Assembly: GCF_004114615.1 (NCBI RefSeq)
Contig: NZ_CP035300.1
Location: 434,001 to 498,000, forward strand
Length of the DNA: 64,000 nt
Direction: 5' to 3'
DNA from: Dyella sp. M7H15-1
Lineage (GTDB): Bacteria > Pseudomonadota > Gammaproteobacteria > Xanthomonadales > Rhodanobacteraceae
Part shown: positions 56,690 through 64,000 of the stretch, piece after piece
How positions within the stretch are numbered: position 1 is the first letter of the stretch
Layout: each line of letters opens with the position of its first letter
Made by a program: the position numbers and the translations under genes
Notes under the pieces: model-generated
Seen by the model: the letters and a program-made list of their open reading frames with translations, nothing else
Database searches by the model: none
What the model was told of the DNA's origin: nothing

Positions 56690-57895
56690 CTACGATCGCT
56701 CCGTGAGGTAGTAGAGCATCGCCCCCGCCGGCAAGCTGAAGCCGAGCCATGCCGTGCATGCCCAGCCGAATTGCGCGAACACCCACGCGCCTGCTGCCGA
56801 GCCGATCGCGCCGCCCAGGAAAAAGATGGCGATGTAGATGGCGTTGAGCCGTCCGCGGTATTCGGACGCCATGGCGAAGATGGCGCGCTGGCCGATCACG
56901 AAGTTCATCGATACGCCGAAATCCAGCACGACCGCGGACAGCACCAGCATGGCGATACGCACCGCGAAGCCGCCGCCGGCATGCATCATCAGGAAGGACG
57001 AGGCGACGATCAGGATGGCAAGACCGGTCAACAGATGTCCCCAGCCCTTGTCCGCGAAGCGGCCCGCGATGGGTGCGGCGATCGCACCTGCCACGCCGGC
57101 AAGTGCGAACCAGGCAATGCCTGCCTGCGATAGATGAAACGCGGGGCTTGCCAGCCACAGCGGCGCCGTGGTCCAGAACAGGCTGAAGGCGCCGAACAGG
57201 CAGGCGTGATAGAAGGCGCGCCGACGCAACAACGGCGTGCGCAGAAAAAGCTGCAACATCGACCGCAGCAGCTCGCTATACGAAAGCCCGGGATCGGGGC
57301 GCCTGGCGGGCAGCAGCAGCGTCAGCACCGCGGCGAGCACCGCCATGCCGGCAGCCGCCAGCACGAACACGGTGCGCCACGATCCCACGTCGGTAAGAAA
57401 GCTCGCCGCCGGCCGCGACAGCATGATGCCTAGCATCAGCCCGCTCACCACCTTGCCCAGCGCGCGGCCGCGCGCTTCGGGTGCGACAAGATGGGAGGCG
57501 TAAGGCATCACGATTTGCGCGGCCACCGCGCTGAAGCCGATGCAGAACATCGCCAACAGAAAGACCGATGCATTGTTCGCGAGCCCGGCCATGAACAGTG
57601 CGAACGTGCAGGCTGCCAGCGCCGCAACGATCAGGCGGCGATTTTCGATCACGTCGGCAAGCGGCACCACCAGCACCAGGCTGAGTCCGTAGCCGATCTG
57701 CGTCATGGTGACGATCAGGCCTGCGGTTTGCGGCGAAAGCCCCAATGCGCCGCTGATCGGACCGATCAGTGGCTGCACGTAATAGAGGCTGGCCACAATC
57801 ATGCCGCAGGCGGTGGCGAGCAGCAGGGTGATCCATGTGGGTAACGAACGGACGACTGCGGGGGAATCGGCTTGTGCGATGTATTCGGTTTGCAT
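56690..57895 (-). CDS. MFS transporter (drug/metabolite efflux-like)
   Basis: 401 residues with twelve predicted membrane helices. The first loop motif LADVIENRR (motif A-like) follows helix 2, and LSRPAASFLTDVGSWRTVF has the DHA1 motif C surroundings. It resembles YnfM/NepI-type proton-coupled exporters. Substrate unknown. It is 34 bp downstream of the DAHP synthase and could export the product of the neighbouring pathway. Confidence 0.9.
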   Translation of the reverse strand: MQTEYIAQADSPAVVRSLPTWITLLLATACGMIVASLYYVQPLIGPISGALGLSPQTAGLIVTMTQIGYGLSLVLVVPLADVIENRRLIVAALAACTFALFMAGLANNASVFLLAMFCIGFSAVAAQIVMPYASHLVAPEARGRALGKVVSGLMLGIMLSRPAASFLTDVGSWRTVFVLAAAGMAVLAAVLTLLLPARRPDPGLSYSELLRSMLQLFLRTPLLRRRAFYHACLFGAFSLFWTTAPLWLASPAFHLSQAGIAWFALAGVAGAIAAPIAGRFADKGWGHLLTGLAILIVASSFLMMHAGGGFAVRIAMLVLSAVVLDFGVSMNFVIGQRAIFAMASEYRGRLNAIYIAIFFLGGAIGSAAGAWVFAQFGWACTAWLGFSLPAGAMLYYLTERS

Positions 57896-57929
57896 GGGCG
57901 GGTCTCGTTTGAATCCGTGCTTCGCTCAA

Positions 57930-59381
57930 CTACACCGCCGCCGCAACTGGCGCCAGCGATTTCAGCATCCCGCTCCCCAGCACGCGCTCGTCGAAATCCG
58001 GACGCCCCGATTTGCGCACGATCAGCATCGCCAGCTCCAGCGACTGTTCGTAATTGAGCCGCGGATCGACCATCGACTTGTAGGCACGGCTCAAGTCCTT
58101 CTCGTCCAACGCGCGCGCACCACCCGTACACTCGGTGACGTCTTCGCCGGTGAGTTCCAGATGCACGCCGCCGAGCCGCGTGCCTTCCGCGGCATGGATG
58201 TCGAAAGCCTGTTCCAGCTCGCCGCGAATGTTGTCGAAGCGGCGCGTCTTGTAGCCGCTGGCGGTGCTTTCGGTGTTGCCGTGCATCGGGTCGGCTACCC
58301 ACAGCACGCGCCGGCCGGCCGCGCGCACGGTGCGCAACAACGGCGGCAGGCCGGTGGCGACGTGCGCGTTGCCCATGCGGTGAATGAGCGTGAGGCGGCC
58401 GGCTTCGTCGTGCGGATTGAGCACGTCGATCAGGCGCAGCAGCGCATCGGGCTGCATCGACGGCCCCACTTTCACGCCGATGGGATTTCGTATGCCGCGG
58501 AAATATTCCACGTGCGCGCCGTCCAGCGCGGCGGTGCGCATGCCGATCCACGGAAAATGTGTAGACAGGTTGAACCATCCTTGCTGGCGTGGCACGCGCC
58601 GGGTCATCGTCTCTTCGTAATACAGCAGCAGCGCTTCGTGCGAGGTGAAGAAATCCACCCGCGCGCAACCGTCGATCGGCCCCGCCAGCGTTTCCATGAA
58701 GCGCATCGAATCGGCAATGCCGGCGAGCATGCGCCGATATTCCACCGCCAGCGGCGCGTGCTCCACCCAGGCCAATTCCCAGTATTCGGGATGGCGCAGA
58801 TCGGCGAAGCCGCCGTCGATCAGCGCGCGCACGAAGTTCATGGTGAGCGCGGAACAGGCATGCGCCTGAATCAGCCGTTGCGGATCGGCACGCCGTGCCT
58901 GCGGCGTAAAGGCCACGCCATTGACCATGTCGCCGCGAAAACACGGCAACGTCACGCCGTCGAGCGTTTCGGTGTCGGCCGAGCGTGGCTTGGCGTATTG
59001 GCCGGCGAAGCGGCCCACGCGCAGCACGGGTTGTTTCAAGCCGTGCACCAGCACCATGCTCATCTGCAGCAAAACCTTCAACCGGTTCGAGATGGTCTCA
59101 CTGTTGCAGTCGGCAAAGGCTTCGGCGCAGTCACCGCCTTGCAGCAGGAAGCTACGTCCTTCCTGCGCATCGGCCAGCGCATGCTGCAACGTCAGCACTT
59201 CGCCCGACGTCACCAGCGGCGGTAACTGCGACAGGCGTTCGCCCACATGCGCGAGTTCTTCGGGGTCGTCATAGCGCGGATGCTGCAAAGCGGTCCGCTG
59301 CCGCCATGAGCCTGGCGCCCAGTCCCTGGTCTGTAACGCGTCCACAGGATGATGCTGGGCATTCACTGTTGCGGTCGTCAT
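57930..59381 (-). CDS. Class II 3-deoxy-7-phosphoheptulonate synthase
   Basis: 483 residues from ATG 59381. Plant/actinobacterial type DAHP synthase: LLQGGDCAEAFADC, RVGRFAGQYAKPRS, HFPWIGMRTAALDGAHVEYF, HRMGNAHVATGLPPLL, VLWVADPMHGNTEST and HLELTGEDVTECTGG with the metal and PEP ligands. It catalyses the first step to chorismate. Class II enzymes are often dedicated to specialised metabolites (for example phenazine PhzC), though some bacteria use them for general aromatics. The next gene upstream is 80 bp away on the same strand. Confidence 0.93.
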   Translation of the reverse strand: MTTATVNAQHHPVDALQTRDWAPGSWRQRTALQHPRYDDPEELAHVGERLSQLPPLVTSGEVLTLQHALADAQEGRSFLLQGGDCAEAFADCNSETISNRLKVLLQMSMVLVHGLKQPVLRVGRFAGQYAKPRSADTETLDGVTLPCFRGDMVNGVAFTPQARRADPQRLIQAHACSALTMNFVRALIDGGFADLRHPEYWELAWVEHAPLAVEYRRMLAGIADSMRFMETLAGPIDGCARVDFFTSHEALLLYYEETMTRRVPRQQGWFNLSTHFPWIGMRTAALDGAHVEYFRGIRNPIGVKVGPSMQPDALLRLIDVLNPHDEAGRLTLIHRMGNAHVATGLPPLLRTVRAAGRRVLWVADPMHGNTESTASGYKTRRFDNIRGELEQAFDIHAAEGTRLGGVHLELTGEDVTECTGGARALDEKDLSRAYKSMVDPRLNYEQSLELAMLIVRKSGRPDFDERVLGSGMLKSLAPVAAAV

Positions 59382-59461
59382 GAGCTGTGCTCTCCAGATG
59401 TGAACGAACCGATGGCACTTCGCCGCTTTTTGTCGACACACTTTCCCTGTGGATGAACACG

Positions 59462-60673
59462 TCAACTCACCTTGGCCGCCAGCCCCGGACGCGAGGCGAG
59501 CCGCGCGGAAACCACCGGCACCGTCAGCATGGTGCTGAGCAGCGACATGATCAGCAGCGCGGTGAACGCATCGCCGCTGATGATGCCTTTGTCAAGCAGC
59601 ACGTCGGCGAAGACGATGGTGATGAGCGATTTGGATTGCAGCAGCCAGCCGATGATCGCCGCCTCGCCCTCGTCCCATTTCAATATCCGACCGGCTAGAT
59701 GCACGCCGATCAGCTTGCCCGCCACCGCTGCCAGCAGCAGCAGGCCAGCCACCGCGAACACCGCCGCGCCGCCGATGGACCAATGCGTCTTCAGGCCGGT
59801 GCTCAGGAAAAACACCGGCATCATCAGCAGCAGCACGTAATGCCTGAGCAGGTCGACGTGCTTCTGCTCGAACCAGCGCAGGTCGATCACCACGCCGGCG
59901 AGAAACGCGCCCACCATGAAATGCAGGCCCGACCATTCGGCCATGAAGGCGGCGACGGCCAGCCAGATGATGGCGGCGAACCAGCGGTCGGCTTCGGTCA
60001 ATCGCGCCATCAGCTTTCGGAAACCTATCGCGGCCAGACCGAACGTTACGAGAAAAATCAATTGTGTCTTGAGGCGCTGCAGATCCAGCAACACCACCGC
60101 CAGCACCGACCAGATCAATATGTCGTCAAGGCTGGCGTAGCGCAGCACGCGCTGGCCGATGGGCTGGCGTAGCAGTTCCATCTTTTCCAGGAAGATGATC
60201 AGTATCGGCAGCGCCGTGATGGAACAGGACATGCCGATGGCCAGCGTGAATTGCCAGCCGTGCGCCAGCGGGCCGGCCCAGCCCGCGTGATGGCTCAACA
60301 GATAACCGACGATGGCGCCCAGCGACAGCGGCACGCCCAGCGCGAGGCCGGCGGTGATGCCGCTTTCGCGGCGGTATCGCCACACGTTGCTCAAATCCAG
60401 TTCCAGTCCGGCGACGAACACGAAAATCATCACCGCCCAGGCGGCGATGCCGTTCAAGTTTTGCGTGGTGGTCGCGCTGAACACCGCGTTGTAGCAGTTG
60501 CCGCAATACGCACCGAGCACGTCGGGTCCGAGCACGATGCCGGCGACGATCTGCACCACCACCATCGGCGCGTAGTAGTCGGTTTTCAGGTGACGCCAGA
60601 GCAGATACGGCACGCTGAAGATGATCAGCATGGCGATCAGGAAACTTTCGGGTTGGGTCAGGTGAAACGCCAC
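59462..60673 (-). CDS. CPA2-type cation/proton antiporter
   Basis: 403 residues from GTG 60673 (AGGAG 7 bp upstream). About twelve hydrophobic helices with MIFVFVAGLELDL, SCSITALPILIIFLEK and the conserved SLDDILIW (Asp pair), plus LQSKSLITIVFADVLL. It resembles KefB/NapA-like Na+/H+ antiporters without the cytosolic TrkA domain. Its role in the cluster is unclear; it may support efflux or pH balance. Confidence 0.9.
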   Translation of the reverse strand: MAFHLTQPESFLIAMLIIFSVPYLLWRHLKTDYYAPMVVVQIVAGIVLGPDVLGAYCGNCYNAVFSATTTQNLNGIAAWAVMIFVFVAGLELDLSNVWRYRRESGITAGLALGVPLSLGAIVGYLLSHHAGWAGPLAHGWQFTLAIGMSCSITALPILIIFLEKMELLRQPIGQRVLRYASLDDILIWSVLAVVLLDLQRLKTQLIFLVTFGLAAIGFRKLMARLTEADRWFAAIIWLAVAAFMAEWSGLHFMVGAFLAGVVIDLRWFEQKHVDLLRHYVLLLMMPVFFLSTGLKTHWSIGGAAVFAVAGLLLLAAVAGKLIGVHLAGRILKWDEGEAAIIGWLLQSKSLITIVFADVLLDKGIISGDAFTALLIMSLLSTMLTVPVVSARLASRPGLAAKVS

Positions 60674-60965
60674 GACAGGCTCCTGTCTTCGGATCATTCA
60701 ACTGATGTGATAGACCAGTTTCTCCCCTGCATGCAGGGGAGAGCTGGGGGTCAGCGCTCTGAACTTAAGGATCTTCCAATCACCCAAAATCCAACTTTCG
60801 TCATTCCAGCGAAAGCTGGAATCCAGTGTTTTTCCGTCCCCAAGTCGCTGGAATGACGAGATGGGGAATTACACTTAAGTTCGGAGTATTGCTTCCACCT
60901 CCCCTGCAAGCAGGGGAGGTGCTTGCTTCACGCGTCGCCCTCGAATACGCGACGGAACCGAGGCG
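60674..60965. repeat. Intergenic region with REP-like hairpins
   Basis: No gene. CTCCCCTGCATGCAGGGGAG (about 60723) and CTCCCCTGCAAGCAGGGGAG (about 60900) are palindromes. TCATTCCAGCGAAAGCTGGA at 60801 is another, with an inverted half near 60847. This separates the two minus-strand gene groups. Confidence 0.7.
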
Positions 60966-61448
60966 CTAATCGATCAACAACGGCCGATACGCCCCTGCAA
61001 AAAAGACCAACGGCCTGCCCTCCGGCTCGGCGAAGAACTTGTCGACAATGCCGATGAGCAGGTCGTGATCGCCTGCCTCCATCCTGCCCCAACTCAAGCA
61101 TTCAAAACGGGCCAATGCATGCTTGACGTAGGGCATTCCGTACTCGTTGATCGCGTAATCGGCCGGGTGCATCCGATGATCGCCGGGGCGTGCGTAGCGG
61201 CTCGAAATCTCCATCTGCTGATCGGATAGCACGCTGATGGAATAGCTTTTCAGTCGCGAAAACAGCGGATAACACAGCGATTTCTGCTTGATGCTCCACT
61301 GCACCAGCGATGGCTCCAGCGACAATGACGAAAAGGAGTTGATCGTCATGCCGATCGGCAGCCCCTGCTCGCCGACGGCCGACACCACGCATACCCCGGT
61401 GGTGAACCGACCCAGGGCGTGGCGATATTGTTTTTGCTCAAGCGCCAT
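60966..61448 (-). CDS. Flavin reductase (FMN-binding split barrel)
   Basis: 160 residues from ATG 61448 (GGAGGA 8 bp upstream, inside the end of the halogenase gene). Flavin-reductase-like domain with ALGRFTTGVCVVS, GMTINSFSSLSLEPSLVQWS and YINEYGM-like PADYAINEYG. It reduces free flavin with NAD(P)H and so could supply FADH2 to the halogenase-like enzyme encoded immediately upstream. Confidence 0.92.
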   Translation of the reverse strand: MALEQKQYRHALGRFTTGVCVVSAVGEQGLPIGMTINSFSSLSLEPSLVQWSIKQKSLCYPLFSRLKSYSISVLSDQQMEISSRYARPGDHRMHPADYAINEYGMPYVKHALARFECLSWGRMEAGDHDLLIGIVDKFFAEPEGRPLVFFAGAYRPLLID

Positions 61449-61465
61449 GACGAAAAGTCCTCCGC

Positions 61466-63046
61466 TCAGTCGGTTTCGCACTCTTGCACCACCATGCTCG
61501 GGTGCACGTCTTCCATGTCTTGCTTCTTCATCGCGTCGTACTCGGGCATCGGCACGCCGATGCGCCGAGGGTGAACGCCGTGCATGTCCGGATAGCCGTA
61601 GCGGCGGAAGTTGAAGGGCTTCATGTCTTCGCGCAGGAAGCGGCCAAGTTCTTCCGCCTCTTCCGCGCTGACCGAATCGCGCTTGGCGTATTCCACCACC
61701 TTGCGGTAGACCGATTCGAATTTCTCCACGAATACCTTGTCGCCCGCGCTCAGCAGCAAGTGGTCCAGATCCACCGCCTTGCCCGCGCCGCCCTTCTCCA
61801 GGTAGCTCTCCGTGCCCATGAAGCAGAAGAAGCAGTAGTTCTTGAAGATCTCGAAATGCTTGAAGGTCTTGTACATGCCGTCGACCATCTTGGCGACGTG
61901 GAAGTACTCGGTCTTGATGGATTTCTCGTAATCCAGCAGCAGCTTCCGTTCAAAGCGCTTGTTCGGAAAAATCTGCTTGTCCAGCACGTCCACCAGCCGG
62001 TGGATGGACATGAAGGTGGCGGCCAGGCCGGTGCTGAACCACGCATCCAGCGCATACGCCGACGCCTGCAGCATGGCCCAGCGGTCGCCGGCCAGTTCCT
62101 TGTTGAGGAACTGCAGCCGCTTGGTTTTGATGAAGGGGAACTCGATCTTGCGGCCGCGCAGCAGCTCGGACACCATCGGATACTGGTCGATGATTTCCCA
62201 GAATTCCTCTTCGCCATTGCGGTCGTTTTCCGGATACAGGTCGATGTCCAGGTTGACGCCGACGCTGGTGATGCCGTTGTCGAAGGGAATGAACCAGATC
62301 CAGCCGCCTTCAAAGCAATGGTGCTGGGTGGCGCGTGAACGCGGCACCGGCGAGCGATCCGGATACTCGGTGCTCTTGCGGATGGTCTCGTCGAACGCGC
62401 CGATGTCCCTGAAGTGCGTGAAGATGCTGCGGCTCTTCAGCGGCGTGTCCAGCGCGTCGCCGGTGAGCTTCAGGTCGAACTTGCGGCCGATGATGGAATT
62501 GAAGCCGGTGGCATCCACCACGAAATCGGTTTCCACGGTGAATTCGCGCTCACCCTTCTTGCAGGAAAGATCCACCTTGTCCGTGCCGAACACGATGTCC
62601 TCGACCGAGGTCATGTCGCTGTATTCCACGCCGTACTTCACGGCCACCTCGGTGATCTGCTGATCCGACGCGGCGCGGTAGTACTGCGCGTCCACTTCGG
62701 ATGTCTGTACGATCACTTCGGGAAACGGTCCGAATTCGTCCGGCCGGGTCTGGCCTTTCTGGTGCACGAAGTACTGGAACATCTCCTTCGGTCCGCACAT
62801 CACGCCGTTTTTCGACGCGTGAATGTTGTTGTAGGTGGACAGATCGTCCAATTCCGGAATGCCGTAGGCGCGGCTGATGTAGCGCATCTTGCGGCTCAGC
62901 GCGGGCGTGCCCGATTCGCCCAGCGCAAAGCGCGGGTGCGTGCCGCGTTCGATCAGCAGCACGCTGTAGCCCAGTTTGGCCAGCACCAGCGCGCAACCGC
63001 TGCCGCCCATGCCGCTGCCGATCACGGTAACGTCGTATTTCTTCAT
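61466..63046 (-). CDS. Flavin-dependent halogenase-like enzyme
   Basis: 526 residues. N-terminal FAD motif VIGSGMGGSGCALVLAKLG, LGESGTP loop (about 43-48), Lys79 in HASKNG at the position of the catalytic Lys of such enzymes, WIWFIP at 249-254 (the WxWxIP halogenase motif), and ALDAWFSTGLAA near 340, like the DPxFSSG halide loop. So it likely uses FADH2 and O2 to chlorinate or brominate an aromatic or pyrrole substrate. It could also be a related monooxygenase. It has flavin reductase and diiron oxidase genes as neighbours. Confidence 0.8.
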   Translation of the reverse strand: MKKYDVTVIGSGMGGSGCALVLAKLGYSVLLIERGTHPRFALGESGTPALSRKMRYISRAYGIPELDDLSTYNNIHASKNGVMCGPKEMFQYFVHQKGQTRPDEFGPFPEVIVQTSEVDAQYYRAASDQQITEVAVKYGVEYSDMTSVEDIVFGTDKVDLSCKKGEREFTVETDFVVDATGFNSIIGRKFDLKLTGDALDTPLKSRSIFTHFRDIGAFDETIRKSTEYPDRSPVPRSRATQHHCFEGGWIWFIPFDNGITSVGVNLDIDLYPENDRNGEEEFWEIIDQYPMVSELLRGRKIEFPFIKTKRLQFLNKELAGDRWAMLQASAYALDAWFSTGLAATFMSIHRLVDVLDKQIFPNKRFERKLLLDYEKSIKTEYFHVAKMVDGMYKTFKHFEIFKNYCFFCFMGTESYLEKGGAGKAVDLDHLLLSAGDKVFVEKFESVYRKVVEYAKRDSVSAEEAEELGRFLREDMKPFNFRRYGYPDMHGVHPRRIGVPMPEYDAMKKQDMEDVHPSMVVQECETD

Positions 63047-63109
63047 GTGGATATCCTTGTGAACGAATGGCTGCGTGGATCCGCTCCGCCGTGGCGGAGC
63101 GGGCGGTGC

Positions 63110-64000
63110 TCAGGCGACCTGCGCTTGCGCTTCAAGCTGGTCGGCGGCGATCTTGCGGCTTTGCGCTTCCAGGCGGCGGCGCAGGATGCCGGCGAGAATG
63201 CCGTCGTAGACGCCGGCGCGCGCGTCCAGCATGCGCATCGCGGCGACATAGACCTTCTCGAAATCCGAACGGGAACGGATGTATGGCAGGCCGGCGGCAA
63301 ACCAGCCGTCGCCGTGCGATTCGTCCAATTCGCAATGCACCACGAAGAAGCGCACCAACTTTTCGTTCAGGCCGCGGCGGCGCAGGTTGGCCAGGATGCG
63401 GCGCTGCTGCGCGGGAATCGTCAGCTCCAGCGCGCCCATGCCGCCCAGACCGTATGGCAGGCCGTCGGCGAACCAACACAGGTTGATCTTGGTGTTGAGC
63501 AGGTGGAAGGTTTCGGGATTCCAGTCGTCCTCGCGCGCGCCGCCGAAGTGATCCATCAGCGGCTCGAACAGGTTGGGATGGGCCTGCTCGAAATCGCCCT
63601 CGCCGAATTCGTCGTGCAAGTTTTCGTACAGTTCCTCGCGCATCTTGAACGGCACGAACAGACTGTAGGCGGCGACGTGCAGGTGGAAGCGCTGCATGTT
63701 CACGCGATAGTTGGACAGAAAGTAGCGAATTTCCTCGTCGCTGAGGTCGTTCTTGTCGAAATACACGAACAGCTCGTGATCGGTGACGCGGTGCTCGTAG
63801 ATCCTGGCCTTGAGCCAGTCGAGGAATTCCTCGGGATCGACGATGTGCGGGGGAATATGCGCCTCGGGCAACATTTCCTTTTCCACGCTTTCCACCAGCG
63901 CACGGAATTTCCATTCCAGCTCGCTGCGCTGCGTGCCGAGGGCGAAGCCTTCGGACATGAGCTTAAGGTTCATGTGGAACAGCGTTTCCTGCAACGCACC
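63110..64000 (-). CDS. Heme-oxygenase-like diiron oxidase (partial at 5' end)
   Basis: At least 296 residues, open to the window edge, so the start is outside or at the TTG 63994. The HDO fold shows the metal-ligand motifs: NLHDEFGEGDFEQAHPNLF in the middle and FVVHCELDESHGDGW near the C-terminus. Such enzymes (as in SznF, UndA or BesC) use Fe2 and O2 for N-oxygenation or C-C cleavage. It is 63 bp upstream of the halogenase-like gene on the same strand, so they probably act in one pathway. Its exact reaction is unknown. Confidence 0.8.
   Translation of the reverse strand, partial: GALQETLFHMNLKLMSEGFALGTQRSELEWKFRALVESVEKEMLPEAHIPPHIVDPEEFLDWLKARIYEHRVTDHELFVYFDKNDLSDEEIRYFLSNYRVNMQRFHLHVAAYSLFVPFKMREELYENLHDEFGEGDFEQAHPNLFEPLMDHFGGAREDDWNPETFHLLNTKINLCWFADGLPYGLGGMGALELTIPAQQRRILANLRRRGLNEKLVRFFVVHCELDESHGDGWFAAGLPYIRSRSDFEKVYVAAMRMLDARAGVYDGILAGILRRRLEAQSRKIAADQLEAQAQVA

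Follow-up and report, generated by a model that had tools for sequence, protein, structure and literature searches.

What would a halogenase gene make when it lies between a flavin reductase and a heme-oxygenase-like diiron oxidase (HDO)? These are among six co-directional genes at the end of the window, the 64,000-nucleotide stretch of Dyella sp. M7H15-1 DNA analyzed here. Pfam and NCBIfam searches recover all six on the minus strand, in the families that a preliminary description had proposed (Table 1). Once the window is extended, they turn out to make up the downstream half of a cluster that spans about w56690-78741 in window coordinates (~22 kb). Beyond 64000 lie an AMP ligase, a GlcG-like protein, a propeller cytochrome, a 2,3-dihydroxybenzoate (DHB) module, and a class II aldolase-fold protein; the flank is not housekeeping only. 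We give about even odds (roughly 0.5) to a regulated small-molecule cluster that couples N-oxidation, to an oxime and then nitrite, with phenol halogenation. This reading is based on gene content, conservation across genera, residues, a fold match, and a common operator.

Table 1. Genes of the cluster that lie within the window.
Feature	Position	Strand	Evidence
MFS exporter	56690..57895	-	PF07690 140 bits
Class II DAHP synthase (second in genome)	57930..59465	-	TIGR01358 663 bits, cut-off 615
CPA2-like cation/proton (Na/H-exchanger-type) antiporter	59462..60697	-	PF00999 133 bits; below cut-off of CPA2-like model
Flavin reductase, HpaC/FerA type	60966..61481	-	PF01613; top NCBIfam matches are FerA/HpaC-like models, under their cut-offs
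Predicted phenolic-type FADH2-dependent halogenase (HAL)	61466..63046	-	K87, WIWFIP; CtcP/PltM nearest solved
HDO, 336 aa	63110..64000, runs on to w64120	-	PF14518

The solved sequences nearest to the halogenase are CtcP (196 bits, 8.8e-57) and PltM (157 bits, 5.5e-45), followed by PltA at 77 bits. A geranylgeranyl-reductase-like identity, raised earlier as a possible pitfall, is rejected: that model scores 58 bits against a cut-off of 159. The WxWxIP motif (residues 249-254) and catalytic Lys had been recognized correctly, except that the residue numbered Lys79 is K87. K87, W249, W251, I253, and P254 are invariant in all 10 aligned halogenase sequences. In CtcP, the residue opposite K87 is a Lys (7xgb, chain index 99) that is taken to be the catalytic Lys98, which PMC12400496 equates with PltM Lys87. 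The flavin reductase gene overlaps the end of the halogenase gene, and this HpaC-like reductase adjoins its halogenase as CtcQ is described as doing with CtcP (PMC12400496). A flavin reductase accompanies the halogenase in 8/8 orthologous loci and was not found in two cyanobacterial loci that have a 31% halogenase relative. The pair is a credible two-component halogenase, with predicted activity on phenols. The earlier picture of a biosynthetic-looking cluster with such a halogenase and a chorismate supply holds. A plasmid search with the halogenase returned nothing above 34% identity among the matches listed (20 of 70 records), and in the phylum sample (E 1e-50) the single match among 398 was the window's own genome.

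The halogenase resembles those of the pyoluteorin (PltM) and chlortetracycline (CtcP/CtcQ) systems in nearest solved sequence and aligned Lys. Unlike in those systems, polyketide machinery is not seen here, and the Dyella cluster adds the HDO, a dioxygenase-like protein, and the ligase. Scaffold genes anticipated past 64000 (NRPS, PKS, aminotransferase) do not appear among the 20 proteins scanned from the 26 kb beyond it. Genome-wide, condensation domains match only at one place distant from the cluster, C1:3.37-3.38 Mb. We reject this distant NRPS (C1:3371-3378 kb) as a scaffold gene, having seen no sign of a link to the cluster. Any halogenated compounds of the cluster would apparently be made without NRPS or PKS.

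The preliminary description assigned the HDO to the right family; as a correction to it, the gene is cut by the window edge. In a structure comparison (best 50 matches listed), the fold match spans nearly the full length of HrmI, the hormaomycin N-oxygenase, and of FlcD from fluopsin C biosynthesis. Among the matches listed, the modeled fold is closest to an N-oxygenase (HrmI). HrmI and FlcD/FlcE are described as performing N-oxidation or oxime chemistry (PMC13108848, PMC11363339). The HDO differs from this group in its neighbors and in an identity of only 16-19%. E171, H181, E232, H262, D266, and H269 are invariant in 20/20 sequences (18 of the 22 loci described below plus two distant HDOs; L039, L050, L051, and L056 left out) and form a candidate 3 His / 3 carboxylate ligand set. 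These residues are presumed ligands, assigned by pattern and by the SznF spacing, and two of the six fall in a poorly modeled stretch. HDOs with identical ligands are also described as desaturating substrates or cleaving C-C bonds (PMC13108848), which counts against the N-oxidation reading.

The class II aldolase-fold protein resembles the pyruvic oxime dioxygenase (POD) that acts in heterotrophic nitrification in Alcaligenes faecalis (AfPOD). As PMC11841055 describes AfPOD, the two share the fold, the His triad, and an N-terminal extension, with a Lys8 equivalent in 9/11 cluster copies. The match to AfPOD has E 3.3e-68 (PDB set), and that to NovR 4e-21; PMC11841055 draws the POD group at E < 1e-60 to AfPOD, in a database whose size differs from that of the PDB set. 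Equivalents of His119, His121, His183, Gln53, Phe103, His104, and Glu164 are invariant in 11/11 cluster copies. In the same 11 copies, the Tyr233 expected of a POD is Trp, as it is in 9/9 related proteins from outside the cluster, four of which adjoin a DHDPS-like gene, with no HDO in evidence. According to PMC11841055, Tyr233 is highly conserved in PODs, and Y233A keeps 0.3% of kcat. Given this Trp in cluster copies and outside relatives alike, nitrite formation and the oxime remain hypothetical. We call the protein POD-like, not POD, because Tyr233 is Trp and nitrite-making from pyruvic oxime is only predicted. It also differs from AfPOD in being about half identical, judged by eye, and in sitting in a halogenase/HDO cluster.

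Twenty loci found by HDO, together with Dyella sp. M7H15-1 and Nostoc C057, gave 22 loci, in which genes were counted by tblastn at E 1e-6, with matches covering 40% or more of the query. Since the loci were found through HDO, linkage counts are conditioned on HDO. L025/26 and L040 belong to one genome (D. acidisoli), as do L047 and L049, and contig ends near HDO truncate L046, L054, and L057. HDO, halogenase, and flavin reductase are contiguous in two Rhodanobacter genomes, Dyella acidisoli, and a Pseudomonas MAG, while in three other gammaproteobacteria one TauE-type gene separates HDO from halogenase. Because the arrangement recurs across those genomes, the gene order is not chance. The POD-like gene occurs in HDO clusters at 11 proteobacterial loci (it is absent from L054) and at 0/10 cyanobacterial loci, eight of which have no flavin halogenase. 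The ligase is absent from L046, L049, and L057. Judged by sequence, an HDO-ligase core is common to soil and marine gammaproteobacteria and cyanobacteria. Burkholderia stagnalis has an HDO-POD-AurF triplet, whose HDO is too distant for a BLAST match. HPP was not seen in the cluster of the Dyella sp. M7H15-1 genome. MFS exporter copies 72-76% identical occupy the equivalent position in L038, L039, and L040, and the antiporter gene is present at 5/22 loci.

The chorismate/DHB part is an addition outside the core, found at 3/22 related loci. The DHB module and extra DAHP synthase occur together in Dyella sp. M7H15-1 and two Rhodanobacter genomes; the cluster-type DAHP synthase is also in L038 and L039. 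Its ATG start is likelier near 59384. The other DAHP synthase copy of the genome (C1:3354 kb, 76% DNA identity) is taken as the housekeeping one because it lies behind ribosomal protein genes, recognized by eye. In the module, an EntA/DhbA-type dehydrogenase scores 324 bits with TIGR04316 (cut-off 300), and a chorismate enzyme scores best with an isochorismate synthase model, at 191 bits, below the cut-off of 225. The isochorismatase (217 aa) matches the isochorismatase domain only, with nearly equal scores for 2fq1, which we take to be E. coli EntB (8e-60), and PhzD (2e-59). A phenazine-type or 3-hydroxyanthranilate (PhzD-like) module is disfavored by the dehydrogenase and chorismate enzyme matches.

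An alternative, which we consider rather unlikely, is that the cluster makes a halogenated DHB or halogenated catechol. The HDO would then cleave or hydroxylate the carbon skeleton, the aldolase-fold protein would be a decarboxylase or aldolase, and nitrogen would be uninvolved. However, the latter protein is far closer to POD than to NovR and keeps the POD catalytic residues, and the HDO is closest to HrmI and FlcD among the matches listed. Furthermore, 5/8 halogenase loci are without the DHB module, and a search of the five genomes concerned for isochorismatase outside these loci (E 1e-10) found none.

A candidate TetR-type operator, ATAACGATCGTTAT, is common to the main operon and the DHB module in three genomes, and the cluster includes a TetR gene. 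The operator sites of G371 stand at 7/8. At up to two mismatches, the pattern and its reversed control gave 12 versus 8, 17 versus 14, and 13 versus 15 sites, not clearly above control in 3/5 other genomes; the case for the operator depends on exact and one-mismatch sites and their positions. This common operator argues against the module being a separate catechol-siderophore remnant that merely adjoins the halogenase cluster. DHB genes are typical of siderophores, and their scarcity among the loci would suit a remnant, yet the extra DAHP synthase within the main operon co-occurs with the module, and the NRPS or carrier domain expected to take DHB is not among the locus proteins scanned. We regard a remnant as very improbable.

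The ligase scores highest with acyl-CoA synthetase models and structures and resembles the PRK08162 type, below cut-off. This similarity would fit an island that degrades or detoxifies aromatic or N-oxidized compounds in humic or acidic habitats: the ligase would form an aryl-CoA for oxygenation by the HDO and the halogenase-like protein, and the POD-like protein would clear oximes. The TetR gene, the exporters, a GST in one cluster copy, a GMC oxidoreductase in another, and a VOC-family gene in three are consistent with such an island. It nonetheless appears improbable: the isochorismate route, like the extra DAHP synthase, is anabolic, the halogenase hallmarks are conserved, and a clear ring-cleavage enzyme is absent among the proteins scanned.

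The ligase, POD-like protein, and common operator lay outside the earlier reader's view, and they move the reading from a halogenated aromatic to N-oxidation plus halogenation. For this preferred reading, we infer all substrates, the step order, nitrite release, the operator-binding protein, and the product. HAL and its flavin reductase, a pair of the PltM/CtcP type, would halogenate a free phenol. The HDO would oxidize an amine to the level of an oxime or hydroxylamine, and the POD-like Fe dioxygenase would cleave an oxime to nitrite and a carbonyl compound. A carboxylic acid of the pathway would be activated by the AMP ligase, while later oxidation and export would fall to the transporters together with the propeller cytochrome and the GlcG-like proteins, which are probably exported. 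In Dyella sp. M7H15-1 and the two Rhodanobacter genomes, the DHB module and extra DAHP synthase would supply a chorismate-derived phenolic acid under the same operator.

HDO and halogenation are likewise described together in one pathway for aetokthonotoxin, from a cyanobacterium, where AetF is the halogenase partner of AetD. Unlike here, aetokthonotoxin uses a tryptophan route; we know of no ligase or POD-like gene in that pathway, and AetD is not among the best 50 HDO structure matches. ATP-dependent diazotases are homologs of ANL ligases. In the ava and cma clusters, as described in PMC10777205, cluster-made nitrite is used by such an ATP-dependent enzyme. Nitrite would likewise be made within the Dyella cluster, but its source would be HDO plus the POD-like protein, not a CreE/CreD-type pair (ANS), and we noticed no CreE/CreD-type gene among the proteins scanned. 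A bolder proposal, and a decidedly unlikely one, is that HDO and the POD-like protein form a second biosynthetic nitrite module with no relation to the aspartate/nitrosuccinate (CreE/CreD) route. The AMP ligase would then join nitrite, or the preceding oxime, to a halogenated phenolic acid, and the product would be a halogenated phenol bearing a nitro, nitroso, or diazo group.

New halogenated compounds might be sought from this cluster, and the phenolic-type halogenase could prove useful as a tool enzyme. In heterotrophic nitrification, the origin of the hydroxylamine or oxime that POD converts to nitrite is described as debated (PMC11841055, PMC11160463, PMC11440038). HDO and a POD-like gene in one cluster, together with the Burkholderia stagnalis triplet, offer a direct test pair for this debated step. 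If the nitrite module is real, the nitrite-releasing enzymes of heterotrophic nitrification would have a biosynthetic origin.

We interpret the gene set and its extension past the window edge as a small-molecule cluster that would join N-oxidation with phenol halogenation. All six genes of the preliminary description are there as described, according to gene reading with Pfam and NCBIfam: an MFS exporter, a class II DAHP synthase, a CPA2-like antiporter, a flavin reductase, a halogenase, and a heme-oxygenase-like diiron oxidase (HDO). The genome is a single contig of 3.52 Mb, with the window at G000:C1:434001-498000. The HDO gene is truncated at the window edge, and its full-length product has 336 amino acids. 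Past the edge, co-directional genes encode an AMP ligase, a GlcG/HbpS-like protein, and a YVTN propeller that contains the CxxCH motif twice. A divergent TetR gene comes next, followed by genes for a VOC-family protein, a chorismate-binding enzyme, a short DAHP-synthase-like protein, a DhbA-type dehydrogenase, and an isochorismatase. Divergent from these lie a class II aldolase-fold protein resembling pyruvic oxime dioxygenase (POD-like), a propeller-like protein, and a cupin. A CutC-like reading frame at w55867-56334, identified by eye and apparently short or broken, lies next to a ribosomal protein gene.

Features past position 64000; the numbering continues that of the window (C1 position less 434000)
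Feature	Position	Strand	Remark
HDO	to 64120	-	
AMP ligase	64172-65806	-	PF00501, 226 bits
GlcG/HbpS-like	65895-66443	-	PF03928, 86 bits
YVTN propeller-cytochrome	66453-69191	-	
Tandem operator	69499-69536		
TetR	69582-70208	+	
VOC	70229-70630	-	
Isochorismate-synthase-like	70643-72091	-	
Short DAHP-synthase-like	72052-73083	-	= L004:52-1083
DhbA-type dehydrogenase	73144-73980	-	
Exact operator	74127-74140		
Isochorismatase	74137-74790	-	
POD-like	74902-75684	+	
Propeller-like	75787-77130	-	
Operator	77210-77223		
Cupin	77416-77994	+	
Small tautomerase-like protein	78235-78687	-	by eye; no match in Pfam and NCBIfam scans
Two exact operators	78705-78718 and 78728-78741		

A tandem palindrome upstream of TetR is conserved in an alignment of four genomes. 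Its core, ATAACGATCGTTAT, has three exact copies genome-wide, every one within the cluster; given the base composition of the surrounding 36 kb, 0.003 would be expected. With up to two mismatches, there are 18 sites genome-wide versus 4 for a reversed control, and 6 of the 18 fall in the 9.2 kb of C1:503499-512741. Sites lie upstream of the TetR gene and main operon, the DhbA operon, the propeller-like gene, and a small gene; the window itself yielded none. At one mismatch or fewer, sites fall within the cluster region in Dyella acidisoli (4/4, C18:233808-239119), inside about 25 kb in Rhodanobacter A1T4 (7/7), inside 27 kb in ANJX3 (7/8), and on the cluster contig of a Pseudomonas MAG (4/5), while the genome carrying related locus L041 has none. 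Loose matches say little on their own, since counts at up to two mismatches can lie near the reversed control (D. acidisoli, 12 versus 8; ANJX3, 19 versus 5; A1T4, 14 versus 5; L041's genome, 17 versus 14; Pseudomonas MAG, 13 versus 15). The TetR protein would be the operator binder. Both Rhodanobacter genomes carry an extra tandem copy (G371:C1:272644-272681 and G372:C8:235953-235990), ~15 kb from the TetR/main-operon sites, pointing to another target gene.

Because operator sites are shared, the 2,3-dihydroxybenzoate (DHB) module is very likely in the same regulon as the main operon. In our view, this probable co-regulation is the strongest evidence for DHB or a relative entering the pathway in the three genomes carrying the module (3/22 related loci). 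The DhbA-type dehydrogenase scores above the curated DhbA cut-off (324 versus 300), and the best model for the chorismate enzyme is isochorismate synthase, at 191, below the cut-off of 225. Elsewhere, the isochorismatase was found only in both Rhodanobacter genomes (12 other genomes or records searched, E 1e-10). In the short DAHP-synthase-like protein, the GGDC motif lacks its Cys and the DPMH motif its His; the full-length paralog has both. We take these residues to be metal ligands, which makes DAHP synthase activity improbable; the protein is probably not a DAHP synthase and is likely a non-catalytic paralog. Its gene is retained in three genomes, between the DhbA and isochorismate synthase genes.

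One HDO-alignment scan of named genomes gave 20 related loci, which with the window's own genome and a Nostoc plasmid make 22 (12 proteobacterial and 10 cyanobacterial). The ligase is present in 19 of these. The halogenase or an ortholog (56-79% identical) occurs in eight, each time with the flavin reductase, and the YVTN cytochrome is found in exactly these eight loci. Since every locus except the window's own was reached via HDO, these counts do not measure halogenase occurrence without HDO. A 31% identical halogenase relative is found in two cyanobacterial loci. Vanadium-haloperoxidase-like proteins adjoin HDO in three cyanobacterial loci (L033:17489-19459, L048:7487-9322, and L051:3447-5282), the first carrying a spondin domain; vanadium chloroperoxidase is a match for the Nostoc protein (7e-23), which shares 33% identity with each of the other two. 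Some halogenating-type enzyme is thus present in 11/22 loci (flavin type in 10, vanadium type in 3, both in 2). The HDO gene is interrupted in L056:9959-10980 (in-frame TAG) and L051:5819-6817 (two frames), through either decay or sequencing error. HPP is present in 9/22 loci; its reading as a nitrite transporter follows PMC7438415, where Maeda et al. 2014 is cited.

POD-like proteins occur in 11/12 proteobacterial versus 0/10 cyanobacterial loci. The three best solved relatives, 8IL8, 8IQA, and 8IX6, are pyruvic oxime dioxygenase structures; the Alcaligenes faecalis enzyme (AfPOD) converts pyruvic oxime and O2 to pyruvate and nitrite (PMC11841055, in excerpt). Equivalents of Q53, F103, H104, H119, H121, E164, H183, and E229 are unchanged in all 11 cluster copies, and that of K8 is found by eye in nine. 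The Y233 position is Trp in every copy and the F69 position is variable. As F69 and Y233 constrict the AfPOD pocket mouth (PMC11841055, in excerpt), the substrate is likely a different oxime, if the chemistry is retained. Nitrite would then be released, and HPP, where present, would be its transporter (PMC7438415, in excerpt).

The same Trp occurs in 9/9 aligned POD-like relatives from outside the cluster. Of the eight loci read for these relatives, four have a DHDPS-like gene adjoining POD-like (one of them by eye), two have neither that gene nor an HDO/AurF-family arrangement, and one record lacks annotation. In the eighth, on Burkholderia stagnalis plasmid plas2 (L071:8272-10768), HDO, POD-like, and AurF-family N-oxygenase genes are consecutive, and the surrounding cluster also holds KS, ACP, and AMP-binding genes; it is a candidate further N-oxidation pathway. 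Nitrite formation from acetaldoxime is reported for Pseudomonas aeruginosa, whose homolog groups with actinobacterial ones (PMC5216522, 2017, in excerpt). In a class sample of 274 genomes, POD-like (E 1e-50) and HDO (E 1e-20) matches each occur in four. Both genomes with close HDOs have POD-like, and both with distant HDOs are without it. A Fisher test of this co-occurrence gives P = 1.6e-4 for close HDOs (the split into close and distant having been made after the matches were seen), P = 9.5e-4 for all four, and P = 0.011 without the window's own genome.

Among solved proteins, the halogenase best matches CtcP (8.8e-57), followed by PltM (5.5e-45) and PltA (77 bits). Its K87 aligns with the CtcP Lys at chain index 99 in 7xgb, taken to be Lys98, the counterpart of PltM Lys87 (PMC12400496, in excerpt); PltM K87A has no activity (PMC6424973, in excerpt). 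K87 and the WxWxIP positions are unchanged in all 10 aligned sequences (the halogenase and nine relatives), including two cyanobacterial relatives only ~30% identical. The flavin reductase adjoining the halogenase is HpaC-like, as is CtcQ of the chlortetracycline system (PMC12400496, in excerpt). Halogenase matches at E 1e-3 occur in 54 of 100 genomes (the window's own and 99 relatives), yet of the 99 only G003, a member of the same genus, carries an ortholog (74%), all others reaching about 30% at best. A phylum sample of 398 genomes held no match at E 1e-50 beyond the window's own genome.

The preliminary observation is confirmed, and its interpretation, a possible halogenated, N-oxidised or C-C-cleaved aromatic product, was half right. 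Among the open-access titles and abstract openings listed, none reports HDO, POD-like, and halogenase in one cluster, which is weak evidence of novelty. The analysis establishes the cluster's anatomy, its conservation, the residues, a fold match, and the operator; the substrates, nitrite release, the order of steps, and the product are what we infer. The enzyme families themselves are already known; the cluster is an unusual biosynthetic assembly of them.
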